A DNA stretch of 64,000 nt from Anaerolineae bacterium (GTDB lineage Bacteria > Chloroflexota > Anaerolineae > Anaerolineales > E44-bin32). Shown here one piece after another: positions 50,350 to 62,309 of the stretch; position 1 is the stretch's first letter, and each line of letters begins with the position of its first letter. The notes under the pieces were generated by a model that worked only from the letters and a program-made list of their open reading frames with translations, did not search any database and was not told the DNA's origin. Made by a program: the position numbers and the translations under genes. The DNA is taken from NCBI GenBank assembly GCA_011174825.1, contig DUEZ01000071.1, positions 1-64,000 on the forward strand. The letters are read 5' to 3'.

Positions 50350-52512
50350 ATGAAACAGGTTATTCAGGACGTTCGTACAGGTGAGACCTCCGTGTTTGAG
50401 GTCCCTACCCCTAAGCCGAAACCGGGCACTGCGCTTGTGCGTACGGCCGCTTCCCTTGTCTCTGCAGGCACCGAGCGAGCGTTACTTGAGTTCGCCGGTA
50501 AGAGCTTATTAGGAAAAGCCCGTTCCCGACCCGACCTGGTTCGCCAAGTCTTCGAAAAGGTTCGCAAGGAAGGGATATTAACCACAATTGAAGCCGTTCA
50601 GCGCCGACTTGATCAACCGATGCCTCTGGGTTACTCATCCTCTGGGATGATTGTGGAGGTTGGTGAAGGGCTGATAGGCTTCCATGTGGGTGACAGGGTG
50701 GTTTGTGCCGGAGGGGGATACGCCGTGCACGCCGAATACGCCGTCGTCCCTCAGAATCTGCTCTCTCACCTGCCGGAATCGGTCGATTTTGAATCTGGAG
50801 CCTCCGCTACCCTCGGAGCGATCGCCTTACACGGCTTTCGCCTCGCCGAACCCCAAATTGGTGAGCGTGTTGCGGTGATCGGTCTGGGGCTGCTGGGATT
50901 GCTCACGGCTGGGATCGCTCGAGCAGCGGGTTGTGTTGTATTCGGTGTCGACCTCTCGACGGCTCGGGTAGCGTTCGCACGCAGCATGGGGGTCGAGGCC
51001 GTGTCACGTGAGGGCGCGGAGGAGGCCGCAGCTTCTTTCAGTAAAGGGGCGGGATTTGACACAGTACTCATCTGTGCAGACACTTCATCTGATGATCCGG
51101 TTGAATTTGGGGGGACGATCGCTCGCGATCGGGCACGCGTTATCGCCGTTGGGGCTGTCGGGATGACGATCCCCCGCAGGCTCTACTACGCTAAAGAACT
51201 GACTTTCCTCGTTTCTCGCTCCTACGGTCCGGGGCGGTATGACCCGCTATATGAAGAGGCGGGGCACGACTATCCCTCCGGCTATGTACGCTGGACAGAA
51301 GGGCGTAATCTGGCAGCCTACGTAAACCTGTTGGCGGAGGGCAAGCTCGACGTAGCACAGCTCATTACACACCGTTTCCCGATCGAACGAGCCACGGAAG
51401 CATACGATCTGATCACAGGAAAAACAGATGAGCCCTTCCTCGGCGTGCTCATAACCTACCCCGAAATCCCCCATGAACCGGCCACCCATCTTACCATCAA
51501 GGAGCGACCCATTGAACCGACCCCCACAATTCGGTTAGGAGTGTTCGGCGCGGGCAATTTCGCCACTTCAGTACTCTTTCCGATCCTACAGCGGATGCGT
51601 GGGATCGAAATGGTCGGTTTAGCGACGGCAACTGGGATGACAGGCGCCCATGCAGGTCGAAAGTACGGTTTCCGATACGCAACGACAGATGAAGAGGAGA
51701 TCCTGGGGGACAAGGGAGTTAACACCGTCACGATACTCACCCGCCATCATTTACATGCTCAGCAGGTGATCGATGCACTTCAGGTCGGCAAGCACGTTTT
51801 CTGTGAAAAGCCACTTTCGTTGACCCGTGAAGGTTTGATCGGGGTCGCTAAAGTAGTGGAGGTCAGCAACCGTTTGTTGACTGTCGGATTCAACCGTCGT
51901 TTCGCACCACTCGCGGTTCAACTTAAAGCCTTTCTCGAAGGTATGCATGAGCCCGTGTCGATGTATTACCGGGTCAATGCAGGTCTTCTACCCAAGGAAC
52001 ACTGGCTTCATGATCCTACGCAGGGAGGTGGACGGATCATAGGGGAAGCCTGTCATTTTATCGATTTTCTGACCTTCCTCCTTGGCGAACCACCAATCCG
52101 TGTACAGAGTAAAGGCTTGCCTGATGATGAACGATACCAGGAGGACAACGTCCTCCTAACCTTCGAATTTCCCGATGGTTCCGTTGGTTCGATCGCATAC
52201 CTTGCCGCAGGAGATCAAGCGTTTCCAAAGGAGAGGTTGGAGGTTATTGGTGGTGGTCGTGTGGCCGTATTGGATGATTTCCGCCGCCTCGAAACCTTCT
52301 CCCGCGGGCGACGTCGGATCCATCGATCTTGGTTGCGACAAGATAAGGGGCATCGCGCCATATGGCAGGCCTTCGCAAACTCAATTTTAACAGGAGGACC
52401 GCCGCCGATCCCCTACCATCAATTGTTCGCGGTTTCCATGGCGTCTTTCGCTGCCGTCGAATCCCTGCGTTCAGGCGAAGTTGTACCCCTCAAACCGCTC
52501 AGCCTAGAGTGA
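50350..52512 (+). CDS. Bi-domain oxidoreductase: zinc-type alcohol dehydrogenase plus Gfo/Idh/MocA family
   Basis: N-terminal MDR/ADH fold (GYSSSGMIVEVG, VAVIGLGLLGLLTAGIARAAG), C-terminal RLGVFGAGNFATSVLFPILQ, GKHVFCEKPLSLT. Confidence 0.92.
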   Translation: MKQVIQDVRTGETSVFEVPTPKPKPGTALVRTAASLVSAGTERALLEFAGKSLLGKARSRPDLVRQVFEKVRKEGILTTIEAVQRRLDQPMPLGYSSSGMIVEVGEGLIGFHVGDRVVCAGGGYAVHAEYAVVPQNLLSHLPESVDFESGASATLGAIALHGFRLAEPQIGERVAVIGLGLLGLLTAGIARAAGCVVFGVDLSTARVAFARSMGVEAVSREGAEEAAASFSKGAGFDTVLICADTSSDDPVEFGGTIARDRARVIAVGAVGMTIPRRLYYAKELTFLVSRSYGPGRYDPLYEEAGHDYPSGYVRWTEGRNLAAYVNLLAEGKLDVAQLITHRFPIERATEAYDLITGKTDEPFLGVLITYPEIPHEPATHLTIKERPIEPTPTIRLGVFGAGNFATSVLFPILQRMRGIEMVGLATATGMTGAHAGRKYGFRYATTDEEEILGDKGVNTVTILTRHHLHAQQVIDALQVGKHVFCEKPLSLTREGLIGVAKVVEVSNRLLTVGFNRRFAPLAVQLKAFLEGMHEPVSMYYRVNAGLLPKEHWLHDPTQGGGRIIGEACHFIDFLTFLLGEPPIRVQSKGLPDDERYQEDNVLLTFEFPDGSVGSIAYLAAGDQAFPKERLEVIGGGRVAVLDDFRRLETFSRGRRRIHRSWLRQDKGHRAIWQAFANSILTGGPPPIPYHQLFAVSMASFAAVESLRSGEVVPLKPLSLE

Positions 52513-54770
52513 TGGCTCCACTGCTCCGCGCTTTTCGTGAACTCGGCCTCGGTCCGTTAGCCCTCTATGGGGGTTATCAGACCTTGTTGCGTACGGGTTG
52601 GATAAAAGCTCGTACGCCTAGCTACGATTGGGCTAAGCGCCCGTTAAAGCGTTGGATCCTCCCCGATGTACCCGCAACACCGATGGCTTATGTCGAGTAT
52701 CGCATTAAACATGCACCTCCTTTCTTCTTGAAGCCGGATGTGTTCTTGAAGACCGAATTGGGCCAGATCCTCGCTGGCGACGAAGAAATTGCTCTGAAAG
52801 AAGTAAATGAGATCCTCTCGGGCTCTTTTCGCCTCTTTGGGGGTGCACCGATTAGACTGGGCTTTCCACCTGACTGGACCGCTTTTGCCCCGTTGACGGA
52901 CGAAGACGATACCTTTCATCTCGATCTGGACCGTCACTGGACAGCCTATAACATCGACGATTTCCCGGCGGACGTTAAACTGCTGTGGGAGATCGCCCGT
53001 TTCGGCTGGATTTACCCCTTGGCTCGGGCATATTGGTTAACGGAAGATGACCGTTATTATTGGGCCATCCTGACATTAATCGACTCCTGGCAAGAAGCGA
53101 ATAAACCCAACACCGGTCCGCATTGGATCTCCGGGCAGGAAATAGCTTTACGTGTGATGGGTTTGGTCTTCACCACCTATGCCTTCGCACACAAACTTAA
53201 TCAAAACCCCGAACAGGTTATTCGCTTGACGGAGATGATCGCCGCACACACCGATCGAATTCCCGTAACATTGACCTATGCACGTTCACAGAACAACAAC
53301 CATCTGCTTGTTGAAGCGGTTGCACTCTATACCGTCGGTCTCCTCTTTCCTGAATTTCGATCCTCGCCGCAATGGTATCGATTGGGCAAACACTGGCTTA
53401 TGGAAGCCCTCACTAGCCAGGTCCTTCCGGATGGCGGTTATGTGCAGCATTCGACCAATTACCAACGCCTGGCGATCCAGGCTGGCTTGTGGGCATCCCA
53501 GATAGCGGTGGCCAACGATGAGCCGCTTCCCCTCAGTGTGATCGACGCCCTACACCGGATGAGCATATGTTTAGGTTCGTTAATCGATCCGGAGAGTGGA
53601 AAGGCACCGAACTTCGGTCCCAATGACGGAGCCCACATCTTACCGCTCACTACATGCCCCTTCGATGATTTCCGTCCTGTAATCCAAGTGGCTAGACGAG
53701 CGTTCTCAGGTAAGCGCACCTACCCATCTGGACCATGGGATGAGGGGTGTGTCTGGTTTGGTATGAAGACTGAGAGAGGCGTAGTTGAACAGAAGCTAGG
53801 TGCGGCTACACCTGGCGTTGACGCTATAGCAAAATCTCCCCTCACCCCAACCCTTTCCCCAAAGGGGAGAGGGGATTCAAGCCTCGATCGAAAGGAACAT
53901 TTCCAACACGCTGGCCTCTACCTCATGGGTGGTCACCAGGCGTGGGGAATGCTACGATGTGCTCGTTTTTCCTCCCGACCGGGTCATTCCGATCAGTTGC
54001 ACTTCGATCTCTGGTGGGGGGGACAGAACATCGCCTGTGACCCTGGCACCTACCTTTACAACGGCGCAACGCCATGGGACAACGGCTTAACAGGAGCGCA
54101 CGTTCACAACACAGTCGTTGTCGACGATCAGGAGCCGATGACCAGGGCGGGCAGATTCCTGTGGCTTGATTGGTCGCGTGGAGAACTGTTAGGCCGTTGG
54201 CGGTCTCAGGAGAATGGATTAGAGGTTTTATGCGCCGAGCACGACGGTTATCGTCGCATGGGTGTGGTTCATCGCCGCACGGTTGTGCGCGCGGGTGAGG
54301 ATATCTGGGTTGTGATCGATGATATCTGTGGTACAGGCTCCTACACCGCTCGTGTAGGCTGGTTACTCCCTGACAGCGAGTGGCGATTAGAGGGGGACGA
54401 GTTGAACCTAACACCTTCACGAGTCCGGCTCACAATGCGTACACTGGGCGCAAAAGGACCGGTGGGCTTGTACCGCGCGGGCGAGCTGATCGGAGGGGAA
54501 CCGGTGAGCGGGGAGGGGACGCTCTGGGGATGGCGCTCGTTGACCTACGCGTCCAAAAAGCCGGCGCTGCGAATCGTTAGCGAAAGCATGGGGAATCTCC
54601 CGCTCAGGCTTGAAACATGGTGGGCTTTCAACGACGTGGATCCCCTCTTCCTTACCCTTGAACGGCGTGATCCCTGCTTGGGCTCGTCCGGGGTATCCAA
54701 GCTTGAATATAAGGGCGCGCGTTTGGACATTGACGATGCACATAATGTTGATTCATCAGGCCTTCGCTGA
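52512..54770 (+). CDS. Heparinase II/III-like (alginate lyase family) protein
   Basis: RSQNNNHLLVEAVALYTVGLLFPEF, GGYVQHSTNYQRL, DQLHFDLWWGGQNIACDPGTYLYNG...HNTVVVDDQEP. Confidence 0.88.
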   Translation: MAPLLRAFRELGLGPLALYGGYQTLLRTGWIKARTPSYDWAKRPLKRWILPDVPATPMAYVEYRIKHAPPFFLKPDVFLKTELGQILAGDEEIALKEVNEILSGSFRLFGGAPIRLGFPPDWTAFAPLTDEDDTFHLDLDRHWTAYNIDDFPADVKLLWEIARFGWIYPLARAYWLTEDDRYYWAILTLIDSWQEANKPNTGPHWISGQEIALRVMGLVFTTYAFAHKLNQNPEQVIRLTEMIAAHTDRIPVTLTYARSQNNNHLLVEAVALYTVGLLFPEFRSSPQWYRLGKHWLMEALTSQVLPDGGYVQHSTNYQRLAIQAGLWASQIAVANDEPLPLSVIDALHRMSICLGSLIDPESGKAPNFGPNDGAHILPLTTCPFDDFRPVIQVARRAFSGKRTYPSGPWDEGCVWFGMKTERGVVEQKLGAATPGVDAIAKSPLTPTLSPKGRGDSSLDRKEHFQHAGLYLMGGHQAWGMLRCARFSSRPGHSDQLHFDLWWGGQNIACDPGTYLYNGATPWDNGLTGAHVHNTVVVDDQEPMTRAGRFLWLDWSRGELLGRWRSQENGLEVLCAEHDGYRRMGVVHRRTVVRAGEDIWVVIDDICGTGSYTARVGWLLPDSEWRLEGDELNLTPSRVRLTMRTLGAKGPVGLYRAGELIGGEPVSGEGTLWGWRSLTYASKKPALRIVSESMGNLPLRLETWWAFNDVDPLFLTLERRDPCLGSSGVSKLEYKGARLDIDDAHNVDSSGLR
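53836..53875. repeat. REP-like repeat inside the heparinase CDS, in frame
   Basis: TCCCCTCACCCCAACCCTTTCCCCAAAGGGGAGAGGGGA translates to SPLTPTLSPKGRG within an uninterrupted ORF. Confidence 0.88.
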
Positions 54771-55989
54771 ACTTGGTGAGCCTGGTGGAACTCGCCATTA
54801 TGAATTCGCACGACAGCTTGTGGTCAAGGGCCATCAGGTGACGGTGTTAGCTGGTCAGGTGAGCTACCTGACCGGGGAACGTATTGAAAAAGGCTGGCTT
54901 AAAAAGAAGGTGGATGACGTAGGCGTAACGATATGGCGCTGTTATACTTACCCATCTTGGCACCGATCCTTCGTCCATCGTGTGCTGAGCTTCCTCAGCT
55001 TCACACTCTCCTCTTTCCTAAGCGGTCTTCAGGTAAAGAATGTCGACCTTGTATGGGGAACTTCACCACCGATTTTTCAAGTCCTCACGGCTTGGCTTCT
55101 GGCTCGACTTAAGGGAGCGCGGTTCTTATTTGAAGTGCGAGATTTATGGCCTTATTTTGCCGTTGCGGTGGGTGTCCTACAGAATCCCCTACTTATTCGC
55201 CTATCGGAGTGGCTTGAGCGCTTCCTTTACCGTCGGGCTGATCACGTCATCCTGAATTCCCCAGGATTTGTGGACCATGTGGAGAGACGTGGTGCGCGAT
55301 CGATCGATATCGTTCCGAACGGGGTTGACATAACCATGTTCAACCCACACGATAACGGGGAGGCCTTTCGTCGCTTACATGGCTTGGAAGATAAAATCCT
55401 GGTCGTTTATGCTGGGGCGCATGGGATGTCAAATGACTTGGGGGTGGTGCTTCAGGCGGCTGAACATCTGCAGGAGAACCGGAGGATCCTCTTCGTCTTC
55501 CTTGGCGATGGCAAGGAGAAGCCCAATTTGATGGCCACAGCAAAGGCGAAGAGCTTAAAGAATGTGCTTTTTTTACCTCCTGTTCCTAAGGTGGAAATAC
55601 CGGGCGCGTTAGCTGCAGCAGACCTCTGTCTTGCGATCTTAAGACCGATCAACGCCTATAAGACGACTTACCCTAACAAGGTCTTTGATTACATGGCGGC
55701 TGGAAGGGCGGTGGTGCTTGGGATCGATGGAGAGATCCGAGAGGTCCTGGAAAAGGCTGGCGCAGGCGTCGCAGTCACACCTGGAGACTCCAAAGCCTTA
55801 GCTGATGCCGTTCGTACCTTAGCTGATGAGCCTGAGCTAAGGCGACGCATGGGCTTGGCAGGACATGACTATGTGAGGCGGAACTTCGATCGACCATCTT
55901 TGGCAAGAAAATTGCTACTGGTAATGGAGAAGATGGTAGGAGGTGATCCTTCAAATGATCGTGAAAGCCGCCTCAGCGGGGGTGAATAG
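54736..55989 (+). CDS. Glycosyltransferase family 4 (WbuB-like)
   Basis: MLIHQAFAELGEPGGTRHYEFARQLVVKGHQVTVLAG, VFDYMAAGRAVVLGIDGEIREVLEKAGAGVAV. Confidence 0.92.
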   Translation: MHIMLIHQAFAELGEPGGTRHYEFARQLVVKGHQVTVLAGQVSYLTGERIEKGWLKKKVDDVGVTIWRCYTYPSWHRSFVHRVLSFLSFTLSSFLSGLQVKNVDLVWGTSPPIFQVLTAWLLARLKGARFLFEVRDLWPYFAVAVGVLQNPLLIRLSEWLERFLYRRADHVILNSPGFVDHVERRGARSIDIVPNGVDITMFNPHDNGEAFRRLHGLEDKILVVYAGAHGMSNDLGVVLQAAEHLQENRRILFVFLGDGKEKPNLMATAKAKSLKNVLFLPPVPKVEIPGALAAADLCLAILRPINAYKTTYPNKVFDYMAAGRAVVLGIDGEIREVLEKAGAGVAVTPGDSKALADAVRTLADEPELRRRMGLAGHDYVRRNFDRPSLARKLLLVMEKMVGGDPSNDRESRLSGGE

Positions 55990-55996
55990 CATAAGT

Positions 55997-56629
55997 ATGA
56001 GGTTCTTTCCCACGGGCGTTCCAATCCGCAAACGCCTCCTCGACCTCCTAATAACCATACCGGGCATCATCCTGATTAGCCCACTTCTGGGACTGGTGGC
56101 CTTATTGGTCTGGCTTCGTTTTGGCGCACCGGTGCTCTTTCGCCAGGTCCGCCCCGGCTATCGTGGAGAACCCTTTACCATTTATAAGTTTCGAACGATG
56201 ACCAACTCCTATGACAAGAAAGGTGAGTTGCTACCTGATTCAAAGCGCTTAACCCGCCTCGGACAGTTTTTGCGGTCCTTGAGCCTCGATGAGTTGCCCG
56301 AACTCATCAATGTGTTGCGTGGTGAAATGAGCCTGGTGGGTCCACGCCCGCTCTTGATGCAATACCTCGATCTCTACTCACAGGAACAGGCTCGACGTCA
56401 CGATGTGCTGCCAGGCATCACCGGGTGGGCTCAGGTCAATGGTCGTAACGTGCTTACCTGGGAGGACAAGTTCCGATTTGATGTGTGGTACGTCGATAAC
56501 TGGTCTTTTGGATTGGATATCAAAATCCTCCTTCGAACTCCCTTGAGAGTGCTCCAGCGCAAGGGCATCAGCCAGCCAGGACACGCTACAGCTGAGGAAT
56601 TTATGGGGAACGGCGAAGGTCGAGAGTAG
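55997..56629 (+). CDS. Bacterial sugar transferase (phosphoglycosyl transferase)
   Basis: KRLLDLLITIPGIILISPLLGLVALLV, APVLFRQVRPGYRGEPFTIYKFRTM, LDELPELINVLRGEMSLVGPRPLL. Confidence 0.95.
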   Translation: MRFFPTGVPIRKRLLDLLITIPGIILISPLLGLVALLVWLRFGAPVLFRQVRPGYRGEPFTIYKFRTMTNSYDKKGELLPDSKRLTRLGQFLRSLSLDELPELINVLRGEMSLVGPRPLLMQYLDLYSQEQARRHDVLPGITGWAQVNGRNVLTWEDKFRFDVWYVDNWSFGLDIKILLRTPLRVLQRKGISQPGHATAEEFMGNGEGRE

Positions 56630-57277: not shown

Positions 57278-58222
57278 GTGAGGCGGTCCTTGATTGCAGG
57301 ATCTTCCCCTGATGATGTAGAACTATACCGTCAGATGCTTCGCATCCGTCGCTTCGAAGAGGGTGTCCTTACGTCTTTCTCAAGCGGCATTTTTTACGGC
57401 ACTACCCACACATACATTGGCCAAGAAGCAGACGCTGTTGGTGTCCTCGCCTGTCGTAGGGAGGGCGATGTCGTCGTTAGCAACCACCGCTGCCATGGGC
57501 ACTTTCTGGCATACGGGGGTTCTATGCATGCTTTAGCGGCCGAATTAATGGGCCGTGCCACAGGCGTAACAGGTGGACGAGGAGGGAGCCAGCACGTACA
57601 GTGGAAGGATTTCTATGCCAACGGTATCCTCGGTGGCACCATTCCGCTGGCTGTTGGCATGGCACTCGCTGAGAAATCTCTCAACACAGGAAAGATCGTT
57701 TTCGCTTTCATGGGGGATGGCACGCTCGGCGAAGGTGTGGTGTATGAGAGCCTAAATATGGCTTCGCTCTGGAGTCTGCCTGTTCTTTTCGTGCTTGAGA
57801 ACAACCGCTACGCCCAGACCACGCCCGTCCAGCTTCACTTGGCAGGTGAGATTGCGGATCGCTTCGAATCTTTCGCCATCCCGACCGCAGAAGCCGACAC
57901 AGTTGATGTGATCGAGATCCTTGAGCTAGCTCAAGAAGCGGTCGCCACTGTGCGCGCCGGTGAGGGACCTCAAGCACTGGTCTTGCACACCTATCGATAC
58001 GGACCTCATTCGAAAGGCGACGACACTCGTGATCCGGAGGAGGTTCTCCGATACAGGAAACGTGATCCGCTTCCGCTTCAAGCCGAACGCCTTGATCCTG
58101 ATCTCCGCCAGCGTGTCGAGGTGGAGGTCGAAACCGAAGTAGCCGAAGCATTTCAACGGGCACAAGATGACCCACATGCAGACCCAGCCTCCCTCACTTC
58201 ACCTCTGGATATTGCCCCATGA
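57278..58222 (+). CDS. Pyruvate/2-oxoacid (acetoin-type) dehydrogenase E1 alpha subunit
   Basis: YRQMLRIRRFEEGV, NHRCHGHFLAYGG, TGGRGGSQHV, TPP motif GDGTLGEGVVYESLNMASLWSLPVLFVLENN. Confidence 0.92.
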   Translation: MRRSLIAGSSPDDVELYRQMLRIRRFEEGVLTSFSSGIFYGTTHTYIGQEADAVGVLACRREGDVVVSNHRCHGHFLAYGGSMHALAAELMGRATGVTGGRGGSQHVQWKDFYANGILGGTIPLAVGMALAEKSLNTGKIVFAFMGDGTLGEGVVYESLNMASLWSLPVLFVLENNRYAQTTPVQLHLAGEIADRFESFAIPTAEADTVDVIEILELAQEAVATVRAGEGPQALVLHTYRYGPHSKGDDTRDPEEVLRYRKRDPLPLQAERLDPDLRQRVEVEVETEVAEAFQRAQDDPHADPASLTSPLDIAP

Positions 58223-59220
58223 ATGTGCTCCAGGCGTTAAACGGCTCGCTGCACGCCTCCATGGCCGAATCGGAACAGGTGTATTTCCTTGGCGAGGATA
58301 TTCTCGAGCCCTATGGTGGAGCTTTCAAAGTAGCCCGGGGGCTATCGACGACCTACCCTGATCGAGTGATCACCACGCCAGTTTCCGAAGCGGGTATCGT
58401 CGGCTTGGGGACTGGGATGGCGCTGCGTGGCTTAAAAGTGGTGGTCGAGATCATGTTTGGGGATTTCATCGCCCTAGCGGCTGATCAAATCATCAACCAC
58501 GCTGCAAAGTTGCGCTGGATGAGTCAGGCAAAAGTCCGTATTCCCCTCGTGATACGCACACCTATGGGCGGAGGTCGTGGCTATGGTCCAACCCACAGTC
58601 AGACCTTAGAAAAGCATTTCTTAGGCGTTCCAGGACTACGCGTCCTCGCGGTTACATCCATGGATGATCCTGGGGAGTTGCTGAAGAGCGCGATCCTGGA
58701 AGACGACGACCCAATTTTGTTCATCGAGCATAAATTACTTTACGCAAAGACTATTCAAATTTTTAATGATACATCCGAGTTTACCCTGCAAAAAAGTGGG
58801 GAGCGCTATCCTGTCTACCATCTTAAAATTGTCGGTACCCCTGCGCCCACGCTAACGATCACAGCTTACGGCTACATGGCCGAACTTGCACGCCAGGCTG
58901 TTCAACGTTTGGCTTTTGAGTTTGAGATCTTCGCTGATCTCGTGGTCCCCACCCAACTCAGCCCATTCAATCTCGATCTTCTACTTGAGTGCTTAGCGAA
59001 CACAGGTCGCTTGCTGACCATCGAGGAGGGCACACACACCCATGGATGGGGTGCGGAGGTTGTGGCTCATGCGGTCGAAACACATGGAGCACGTATCCAG
59101 GCAAAGAGATTGGCTGCCCGGGATATGCCTATACCAGCTTCAGGACCACTTGAGAAGAGCGTGATACCGGATGTAGAGGGTATCATAAAGGCTGCGAGGG
59201 AAATTACAGGCCAGAAATGA
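58219..59220 (+). CDS. Pyruvate/2-oxoacid dehydrogenase E1 beta subunit
   Basis: ALNGSLHASMAESEQVYFLGEDILEPYGGAFKVARGL, TTPVSEAGIVGLGTGMALRGL, GPTHSQTLEKHFLGVPGLRV; 4-nt overlap with E1 alpha. Confidence 0.93.
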   Translation: MNVLQALNGSLHASMAESEQVYFLGEDILEPYGGAFKVARGLSTTYPDRVITTPVSEAGIVGLGTGMALRGLKVVVEIMFGDFIALAADQIINHAAKLRWMSQAKVRIPLVIRTPMGGGRGYGPTHSQTLEKHFLGVPGLRVLAVTSMDDPGELLKSAILEDDDPILFIEHKLLYAKTIQIFNDTSEFTLQKSGERYPVYHLKIVGTPAPTLTITAYGYMAELARQAVQRLAFEFEIFADLVVPTQLSPFNLDLLLECLANTGRLLTIEEGTHTHGWGAEVVAHAVETHGARIQAKRLAARDMPIPASGPLEKSVIPDVEGIIKAAREITGQK

Positions 59221-59444: not shown

Positions 59445-60548
59445 ATGTCTGATCCATTTGAAGTCTTAGTCCCTTTACTAAATCCGAATGAGCCTGAATC
59501 ACGGCTCTCTGAAATCCATGTGGCAAACGGTCAGCAGGTGAAGCAAGGTGCTGTCCTTTGCACGCTTGAGACGACCAAGTCGACAGCTGAGTTGGTCGCC
59601 CATCGGGAAGGGTACGTCATCGGACTGGGTGCAACGATCGGGGATATGGTCAGGGCGGGTGCGCGGTTGTGCTGGCTAGCGGATGAAGAGGATTGGCAGC
59701 CGCCGGTAGTGGAGCATGTCTCAAAGCCGTCTATCGAGGGAGCCCCCCCTGAGGGATTGCGTATCACCGAACCGGCCTTAAACTTAGCACAGCAAGCCGA
59801 TTTAAACCTCTCCTCGCTTCCGATTGGACCCTTGATCACACAAGAGATCGTCCGAGAAGCAATAGCTAGGGAGCGCGAAATGACTTACGAGTTACCGGAT
59901 GGCCCCTTTGAGCCAAAGGCCCTGATCATTTATGGCGGCGGTGGACATGGGAAATCCCTGATCGACCTGGTGCGCGTGATGGGGACCTTCGAAATTGTGG
60001 GACTGATTGATGACGGGCTCGAAGTTGGATCAGAGGTGATGGGCCTAACCGTTTTCGGCGGTGGTACGTTGTTAGCTCCATTGGCGGAGCGAGGTTTACG
60101 CTTAGCGATTAATGCGGTTGGGGGTGTGGGTGACGTTGGAAGCCGTGTGATGGTTTTCGAGCGAATACTGAACGCAGGTTTTACCTGTCCAACGTTGATC
60201 CACCCTAAGGCCTTTGTCGAACCTAGCGCACATCTGGCTGACGGCGTACAGGTATTCCCTAACGCATATATCGGGAGCGAAGCGAAGGTCGGTTTTGGTG
60301 CGATCGTCAATACCGGTGCAGTTGTTTCCCACGATTGCCGCTTAGAAGCCTACGCCAATGTCGCACCCGGGGCATTGCTAGCTGGTGGGGTGACGATTGG
60401 TGAGGGAGTTCTGATTGGGATGGGTGTAACCATTAACTTGAACGTCGAGATCGGAGCAGGTGCTCGGGTAGGCAACAGCGCCGTTGTGAAGCAGGATGTC
60501 CCCGAAGGTGCGATCGTCCATGCAGGGGCGATTTGGCCCCCATCGTAG
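59445..60548 (+). CDS. Chimeric protein: lipoyl domain, degenerate E3-binding (PSBD) domain, and NeuD/PglD-type left-handed beta-helix sugar acyltransferase
   Basis: Lipoyl-like VLVPLLNPNEPESRLSEIHVANGQQVKQGAVLCTLETTKSTAELVAHREGYV (candidate lipoyl-Lys45 at 59577-59579); PSBD-like RITEPALNLAQQADLNLSSLPIGPLITQEIVREAI; NeuD-like ALIIYGGGGHGKSLIDLVRV...GLIDDG...LIHPKAFVEPSAHLADGVQVFPNAYIGSEAKVGFGAIVNTGAVVSHDC. Confidence 0.88.
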   Translation: MSDPFEVLVPLLNPNEPESRLSEIHVANGQQVKQGAVLCTLETTKSTAELVAHREGYVIGLGATIGDMVRAGARLCWLADEEDWQPPVVEHVSKPSIEGAPPEGLRITEPALNLAQQADLNLSSLPIGPLITQEIVREAIAREREMTYELPDGPFEPKALIIYGGGGHGKSLIDLVRVMGTFEIVGLIDDGLEVGSEVMGLTVFGGGTLLAPLAERGLRLAINAVGGVGDVGSRVMVFERILNAGFTCPTLIHPKAFVEPSAHLADGVQVFPNAYIGSEAKVGFGAIVNTGAVVSHDCRLEAYANVAPGALLAGGVTIGEGVLIGMGVTINLNVEIGAGARVGNSAVVKQDVPEGAIVHAGAIWPPS

Positions 60549-60637: not shown

Positions 60638-60977
60638 CTAGGAACAAGTGGGATAGATACCGAATCTGAACTCGGCTAGGCTAAGGCTAGCGTAGTTAGG
60701 AGTGCGCAAACTTTGTTTATACCTAGGAACACGTGGATTAGACACTGAATCTGAACTCGGCTAGACTAAGGCTAGCGTAGTTTGGAGTGCGCAAGCTCTG
60801 CTTATACCTAGGAACACGTGGATTAGACGCTGAATCTGGGCTAGGCTAGGCTAAGGTTAGCGTAGTTTGGCGTGCGCAAGCTCTGCTTATACCTAGGAAC
60901 ACGTGGATTAGACACTGAAACTGGGCTAAGCTAGACTGATGCTAGATTAGTTTGGAGTGCGCAAGCTCTGCTTGCGC
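60638..60977. repeat. 85-bp tandem repeat, 4 diverged copies
   Basis: CTAGGAACA(C/A)GTGG unit starts at 60638, 60723, 60808 and 60893, a constant 85-nt spacing. Confidence 0.93.
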
Positions 60978-61112: not shown

Positions 61113-62309
61113 TTGCGTAAAGATGATGGTGATCGATCAGGTCAAATATCGATGTCGGGACCCGATCTGACGGACGCCGAGCGCGAAGCGGTTGCGGCCG
61201 TCTTACGTACGCCCCGACTTAGTGTCGGTCCTCAAGTGGACACTTTCGAAGCTGTTGTCGCCGACCGCGTGGGTGCGAAACATGCAATCGCAGTCAACTC
61301 AGGTACGGCTGGATTACACTTGTGTGTGCGTGCCGTAGGTATCACAGACGGCGATTGGGTGATTACCACGCCATTTTCTTTCATCGCCTCTTCCAACGTG
61401 CTACTCTACGAACGGGCAATCCCGGTTTTCGTTGACGTGGAACCACTGACAGGGAACATCGATCCAGTATTGGTCGCTGAAGCAGCGGCCGACTTAAGGG
61501 AGGGTGGAGCCGTGGCTAGGCGCTGGTTGCCTCCACGAGGCGCGCCCGATGATGGTGAGCTCAAGGCAATCCTAACGGTAGACGTCTTTGGTCAACCTGC
61601 TGATTACGATCAGCTTGCAATAACGGCAACGAGACACGGGTTGAGAACGATCGAGGATTCCTGTGAGGCGATCGGGTCGACCTATAAGGACCGTCAAGCA
61701 GGGACCCTGGGGGACATCGGCGTGTTCGCCTTCTATCCCAACAAGCAGATCACCACGGGTGAAGGTGGGATTGTGGTGACCAACCACGACGATTGGGCTA
61801 GCATGGTCCGAGCGCTCCGCAATCAAGGTCGGGCACCCGGGGACACCTGGCTCGAGCACTCGTATCTGGGTTACAACTATCGGATGGACGAGATGTGCGC
61901 TGCTTTGGGCAGGGTTCAGATGTCACGATTGGATGAACTGCTGGGAAAGCGCGAACGTGTGGCGGGTTGGTATAACGAACGGTTGAAGTCGCTACCCGAG
62001 GTTGAATTGCCTAGCTTGGCCCCTTCTACTACACGCATAAGTTGGTTTGTCTATGTAATACGCCTGGACCCGTCCATCGATCGGCGAGAAGTGATGGAGC
62101 GCATGAAATCGCGAGGGGTGCCCAGCCGACCGTATTTCGTTCCTATTCATCTACAGCCTCATTATATTGAACGATTTGGGTACCAACCGAGCCATTACCC
62201 TGTGACCGAGGACTTGGGTCAGCGCAGTCTGGCTCTCCCCTTCTCGGGGGTGATGAGCGAGGACGATGTGGCGTACGTTTGCGAGGCGTTAAGGCATAGT
62301 CTTAGGTAA
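61113..62309 (+). CDS. DegT/DnrJ/EryC1/StrS family sugar aminotransferase
   Basis: AVNSGTAGLHLCVRAVGI, TTPFSFIASSNVLLYERAIPVFVDV, EDSCEAIGSTYKDRQAGTLGDIGVFAFYPNKQITTGEGGIV, YNYRMDEMCAALGRVQM. Confidence 0.95.
   Translation: MRKDDGDRSGQISMSGPDLTDAEREAVAAVLRTPRLSVGPQVDTFEAVVADRVGAKHAIAVNSGTAGLHLCVRAVGITDGDWVITTPFSFIASSNVLLYERAIPVFVDVEPLTGNIDPVLVAEAAADLREGGAVARRWLPPRGAPDDGELKAILTVDVFGQPADYDQLAITATRHGLRTIEDSCEAIGSTYKDRQAGTLGDIGVFAFYPNKQITTGEGGIVVTNHDDWASMVRALRNQGRAPGDTWLEHSYLGYNYRMDEMCAALGRVQMSRLDELLGKRERVAGWYNERLKSLPEVELPSLAPSTTRISWFVYVIRLDPSIDRREVMERMKSRGVPSRPYFVPIHLQPHYIERFGYQPSHYPVTEDLGQRSLALPFSGVMSEDDVAYVCEALRHSLR

Follow-up and report, generated by a model that had tools for sequence, protein, structure and literature searches.

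Enzymes of the PglD/NeuD/PerB family (NCBIfam TIGR03570; PDB structures 4m98, 4ea7, 3bss and 7txp) are two-domain sugar N-acyltransferases, with an Asp pair at the UDP site and a catalytic His, and their genes neighbour those of a DegT aminotransferase and a small phosphosugar transferase. NeuD/PglD enzymes are acetyl-CoA dependent (PMC8040287). The E2 components of PDH, BCKDH and OGDH are built in the order lipoyl domain, PSBD, acyltransferase, with E1 alpha and beta genes adjoining and E3 available. Lipoyl arms are known from 2-oxoacid dehydrogenases, from glycine cleavage and, more recently, from sulfur oxidation. LpxA and LpxD are beta-helix trimers fed by a protein-bound swinging arm; they take their acyl groups from a carrier protein, which means that the beta-helix fold accepts an arm-borne donor. 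Pairs of E1 alpha/beta-like proteins are also documented within sugar pathways, where Plm8/Plm9 and the avilamycin eurekanate pair extend a keto sugar by a two-carbon branch (PMC4802897).

We describe here a gene that shares something with each of these systems. It lies in a stretch of 64,000 nucleotides (the window; contig DUEZ01000071.1 of assembly GCA_011174825.1) from an Anaerolineae bacterium of the phylum Chloroflexota. Its product, the chimera, has the two domains, active-site residues and gene neighbours of the PglD/NeuD/PerB family; it differs from that family by N-terminal lipoyl and PSBD-like domains, by an apparently private E1, and by absence of the GVPA[KR] C-terminal turn. Its lipoyl domain, PSBD-like segment and acyltransferase stand in the E2 order, with E1 alpha and beta genes adjoining and E3 available, but the CAT domain (PF00198) of the PDH, BCKDH and OGDH proteins is missing, and a sugar N-acyltransferase of left-handed beta-helix fold serves as acceptor module. 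In LpxA/LpxD the arm belongs to a protein of its own, the phosphopantetheine-bearing acyl carrier protein, and there is no E1, whereas in the chimera the arm is a fused lipoyl domain; and the Plm8/Plm9 and avilamycin pairs resemble the cassette in placing an E1 within a sugar pathway, but no lipoyl-acyltransferase fusion has been described for them. In our reading, to which we give a probability of about two in three, the cassette serves as a 2-oxoacid dehydrogenase line of its own, with an amino sugar and not CoA as the final acceptor. No precedent for a lipoyl-NeuD/PglD enzyme was found in the open-access literature searched; one candidate, PMC4875605, is unrelated, as "lipoylation" there means fatty acylation of glycans.

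Domain architecture of the chimera

The chimera is encoded by one uninterrupted reading frame, from an ATG at 59445 to a stop codon at 60546-60548 (367 aa; Table 1). Pfam Biotin_lipoyl (PF00364) matches its N-terminal part with E 6.8e-10 (39.1 bits, cut-off 22.1), and when the profile of this region is compared with solved structures, lipoyl domains of PDH E2 rank first. The candidate lipoylation site, Lys45, is present in 35 of the 35 chimeras that span it. A biotin-type carrier was considered and rejected on the ETTKS context and on the best matches, which are to PDH E2 lipoyl domains and not to MKM-type biotinyl domains. LipA was found in each of the 14 chimera genomes tested, and 32 of 33 genomes encode E3 (dihydrolipoamide dehydrogenase), at sites apart from the cassettes. 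Lipoylation of the chimera at Lys45 is predicted.

Table 1. Coordinates of the chimera, its parts and its neighbours in the window
Feature	Position	Strand	Basis
Small Bac_transf (PglC/WcaJ-type) sugar-phosphate transferase, upstream of E1 pair	55943..56629	+	PF02397, E 8e-63
Cassette E1 alpha (TPP-dependent 2-oxoacid dehydrogenase), GDG...ENN TPP motif kept	57278..58222	+	PF00676, E 7e-56
Cassette E1 beta	58219..59220	+	PF02779 and PF02780
Chimera: lipoyl domain, PSBD-like segment, NeuD/PglD N-acyltransferase	59445..60548	+	ORF, Pfam, NCBIfam
Lipoyl domain, residues 1-82	59445..59690	+	Pfam, residues 18-76; profile against 7b9k, E 2.7e-19
Lys45 codon, candidate lipoylation site, within LETTKS	59577..59579	+	Chimera alignment
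PSBD-like segment, residues 105-140	59757..59864	+	hhalign against canonical PSBDs
NeuD/PglD module, residues 160-358: PglD_N fold and left-handed beta-helix	59922..60518	+	TIGR03570; 4m98; 4ea7
His296 codon, candidate catalytic His	60330..60332	+	Aligned with the His replaced in PerB entries 4eaa and 4eab
DegT/DnrJ/EryC1/StrS sugar aminotransferase, downstream of chimera	61113..62309	+	PF01041, E 1e-107

The segment between the lipoyl and NeuD parts reads LRITEPALNLAQQADLNLSSLPIGPLITQEIV. A sequence-only reading of this DNA had called it PSBD-like, a claim that stands on profile comparison and not on Pfam, whose E3_binding model has no match in the chimera. When a profile of the linkers of 35 chimeras is compared with canonical E2s from the same genomes, it falls in register with their PSBD (hhalign score 44.7, P 6.5e-7), far above the best score of 17.5 among 60 column-shuffled control profiles. 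Relative to canonical E2s, the chimeras have a conserved loop that is shorter by about three residues.

In the C-terminal part, Pfam PglD_N covers residues 160-239 and is followed by Hexapep repeats. TIGR03570 (NeuD/PglB/VioB) scores 165.7 bits against a curated cut-off of 160.8, and the best profile matches are to the pilin glycosylation protein 4m98 (E 3.4e-39) and to the perosamine N-acetyltransferase PerB, 4ea7 (E 8.9e-36). An Asp pair, Asp189 and Asp190, is found in 34 of 34 fused sequences, and His296 is conserved in all but one of 34 chimeras. These residues are assigned by position: an Asp pair at this site binds uridine in a PglD-like enzyme (PMC8040287), and the role of the catalytic His is taken from that work and from the PerB entries 4eaa and 4eab. 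Of the parts that the sequence-only reading had recognized in a single frame, the lipoyl-type domain with a candidate Lys45 and the complete NeuD/PglD module are confirmed by Pfam and by TIGR03570 above its cut-off, and the linker profile supports the PSBD-like segment.

PF00198 has no match in the chimera by Pfam; the two matches in the window genome are on other contigs, and canonical E2s and E1s are encoded separately in that genome. The chimera may have arisen by replacement of the CAT domain, or by gain of a lipoyl-PSBD sequence by a NeuD gene. An AlphaFold model made from two sequences only had a mean pLDDT of 36.7 for the whole protein and 66.7 for residues 1-84, and Foldseek with this low-confidence model returned no significant match. 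A reading of the gene as part of a defence system was dropped, since PADLOC gave no match.

The window genome is a draft of 102 contigs with 6% contamination, and an assembly or annotation artefact might be suspected on that ground. A search for homologs of the same architecture, proposed together with the original observation, found it intact in about 30 other, independent genomes; neither chance nor a faulty assembly join would produce this recurrence, which refutes misassembly and leaves an artefact with a negligible probability.

Spread of the fusion and its coupling to E1

A search profile was built from four chimeras and run, at a threshold of E <= 1e-40, against 101 sampled genomes of the order to which the window belongs. 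It matches 41 of these genomes, 31 of them with full-length chimeras, in eight families; two more full-length chimeras came from the phylum sample. No full-length members of the chimera clade from outside the order were found in the class and phylum samples, and no plasmid relative covered 80% of the protein. A scan of genome contigs gave only one close relative, and the nearest named relative is Anaerolineae MAG W167, also of Chloroflexota. In a NeuD tree a 99/99 branch separates all chimeras of the order from ordinary NeuDs. In a genome that belongs to the phylum but not to the order, a further protein (L082:2913-4121) carries a lipoyl domain of classical E2 type (VETDKVNMELEA) fused to an ordinary NeuD with GVPAK retained; no E1 is present on its 7.5-kb contig, and this fusion is independent of the chimera clade.

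E1 beta adjoins the chimera in 34 of 36 loci. The two exceptions are L071, where the contig begins inside the gene, and L092 (7926-9110), which is the sole chimera with full upstream sequence and still no E1. The L092 protein is also the only one with a substitution (Gln) at the catalytic His of its NeuD part, so that the locus looks decayed.

The chimera clade contains four NeuD genes that have no lipoyl-PSBD part, at two positions in the tree (L072, and L017/L018/L019); a fifth apparently unfused row, L075, was set aside as truncated by a contig end. This distribution is consistent with at least two losses of the fusion within the clade. None of the four unfused loci has an E1 nearby, and LipA is missing only from two genomes, both among these four. 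One of the unfused genes (L019:7007-8116) still encodes a lipoyl-like domain, in which SGTEE replaces ETTKS, but it has lost the PSBD, and its locus has no E1. Its flanking genes are of the kinds that also flank the intact L014 chimera; from their sequences we take them to be a 3-methyladenine-glycosylase-like and a bactofilin-like gene. Judged by the unfused loci without E1, the loss of lysine and PSBD in L019 and the pattern of LipA, E1 is present or absent together with the PSBD and the lipoyl lysine.

The decayed domain of L019 and the E1-less chimera of L092 could be taken as signs that the lipoyl and PSBD parts are in general vestigial or regulatory, either remnants or a redox sensor, and that the cassette E1 has a separate role. 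Loss of the lysine is seen only where E1 is gone, however, and in all other cases the residues of the lipoyl signature are maintained, in eight families; we regard this explanation as very improbable, the least favoured of the three functional alternatives considered here.

The cassette E1 pair

The E1 pair is directly upstream of the chimera, with the start of E1 beta overlapping the stop of E1 alpha, and in several chimera loci the two subunits form a single ORF; the core of the system is compact, consisting of E1 alpha, E1 beta and the chimera. Residues for TPP binding and catalysis are retained, among them Glu57 and His126 of E1 beta, which are conserved with canonical E1 beta. The best NCBIfam model for E1 alpha is PDH E1 alpha, at 267 bits (equivalog cut-off 393.85), and E1 beta reaches 205 bits against a pyruvate dehydrogenase family cut-off of 321; both scores are below the cut-offs. 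The closest solved structure is human PDH E1 alpha. The window genome encodes four E1 alpha genes, and in the trees the cassette proteins form their own clades apart from the canonical E1s of the same genomes (SH-aLRT 99 for alpha, 100 for beta); judging by these clades, they are private to the chimera. Another, very divergent E1 alpha/beta pair of the window genome (L118:5392-7453, contig C86) has no lipoyl protein adjoining.

The cassette E1s have conserved differences in three motifs, TTHT for FLHL, NHR for AYR and AQTT for GMGT, which border the substrate cleft in PDH E1; given these differences, the 2-oxoacid may or may not be pyruvate.

Pocket motifs unlike those of canonical E1s, together with the documented role of E1-like pairs in sugar pathways (PMC4802897), raise another possibility: the cassette E1 might add a pyruvate-derived two-carbon unit to an NDP-4-keto sugar, as do Plm8/Plm9 and the avilamycin pair, and the lipoyl domain would then be incidental. 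Such chemistry needs no lipoyl lysine, yet the lysine is invariant and the domain that carries it is joined to an acyltransferase, and the joint loss of E1 and the lipoyl sequence would be left unexplained. We find sugar branching improbable, slightly less so than a vestigial lipoyl domain.

Proposed reaction and the surrounding glycan locus

The idea that the chimera is an E2 with a sugar N-acyltransferase as its acceptor module, put forward from the sequence alone, gains support from the adjoining E1 pair in nearly all homologous loci, the invariant lipoyl lysine, the joint disappearance of E1 and the lipoyl lysine or domain, and a change at the C-terminus. The xPA[KR]-type turn (GVPA[KR]) is found in none of the 34 fused sequences, and ordinary NeuDs from this phylum in the set keep such a turn; in a PglD-like enzyme the proline of this turn switches to cis upon CoA binding (PMC8040287).

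In the reaction that we propose, E1 alpha/beta, probably held by the PSBD-like segment, would decarboxylate a 2-oxoacid on TPP and reductively acylate the lipoyl arm at Lys45. The S-acyl-dihydrolipoyl arm would then enter the NeuD active site between the subunits of the trimer, in the manner of acyl-ACP in LpxA/LpxD, and pass its acyl group directly, with no free CoA, to the amine of a UDP-4-amino-sugar supplied by the adjacent DegT aminotransferase. The arm would be reoxidised by an E3 encoded elsewhere, and the small phosphosugar transferase would commit the acylated sugar to a glycan. The acyl group is perhaps acetyl, from pyruvate, or another short acyl.

An alternative is that the lipoyl and PSBD parts merely dock NeuD onto a complex that forms acyl-CoA, and NeuD uses the acyl-CoA as PglD does. 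The acetyl-CoA dependence of NeuD/PglD enzymes (PMC8040287), the canonical E2s of the genome and the persistence of unfused descendants without a lipoyl domain all speak for it; against it are the invariant lysine, which docking alone would not need, the E1 pair that adjoins the chimera without any CAT domain, and the loss of the CoA-linked turn. We consider docking unlikely, though the strongest of the alternatives. Neither docking nor sugar branching nor a vestigial lipoyl domain accounts as simply for the joint conservation of the lysine and E1 as does acylation of a sugar from the lipoyl arm.

Some points count against the proposed reaction. Pfam does not recognise the PSBD-like segment, and the L092 chimera has no E1 beside it. 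Having no lipoyl domain, the unfused descendants must draw on some other donor, and they likewise have no GVPA[KR] turn, which weakens the inference from loss of the turn to independence of CoA. Also, were the acyl group simply acetyl, the advantage would be unclear, as the cell already has acetyl-CoA. We lean only a little towards a whole class of CoA-independent, lipoyl-dependent sugar N-acyltransferases, E2s that deliver to a nucleotide-activated amino sugar an acyl group that is possibly not acetyl and is set by a specialised E1. The data suggest that a group of Chloroflexota has a lipoyl-armed sugar acyltransferase with its E1, making an acylated amino sugar from a keto acid and not from acyl-CoA. 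If so, the lipoyl arm of a much-studied machine would have a new acceptor, a sugar; acyl groups of glycans would come straight from keto acids, and keto-acid metabolism would be wired directly into glycan building.

Neighbouring genes fit such a role. Where a chimera locus has 5 kb or more of sequence upstream, which holds for 23 of them, the Bac_transf partner is found there in 16, and a DegT gene is 3' of the chimera in nine other or same-family loci. For the DegT gene of the window the best NCBIfam models are of PseC and LegC type, with scores below their cut-offs; this aminotransferase is the probable source of the amino-sugar acceptor. A PF02719 gene, of a family that includes UDP-sugar dehydratases, occurs in 18 of 18 genomes tested and is on contig C22 in the window genome. 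Local production of the acyl donor by an E1, with an aminated nucleotide sugar as acceptor, would be expected to go with just such a layout: an E1 pair upstream, and a phosphosugar transferase and a DegT aminotransferase close by.

Between the chimera and the DegT gene (60638-60973) there are four head-to-tail copies of an 85-bp repeat, with 89% matches; a 22-base piece of it is absent elsewhere in the window. Further upstream, positions 50350-56629 encode a fused dehydrogenase/Gfo-Idh-type protein, a heparinase II/III-like protein, a WcaI-type glycosyltransferase and the phosphosugar transferase. This run is conserved together with the cassette in L096, which indicates that the cassette is part of a larger glycan locus.
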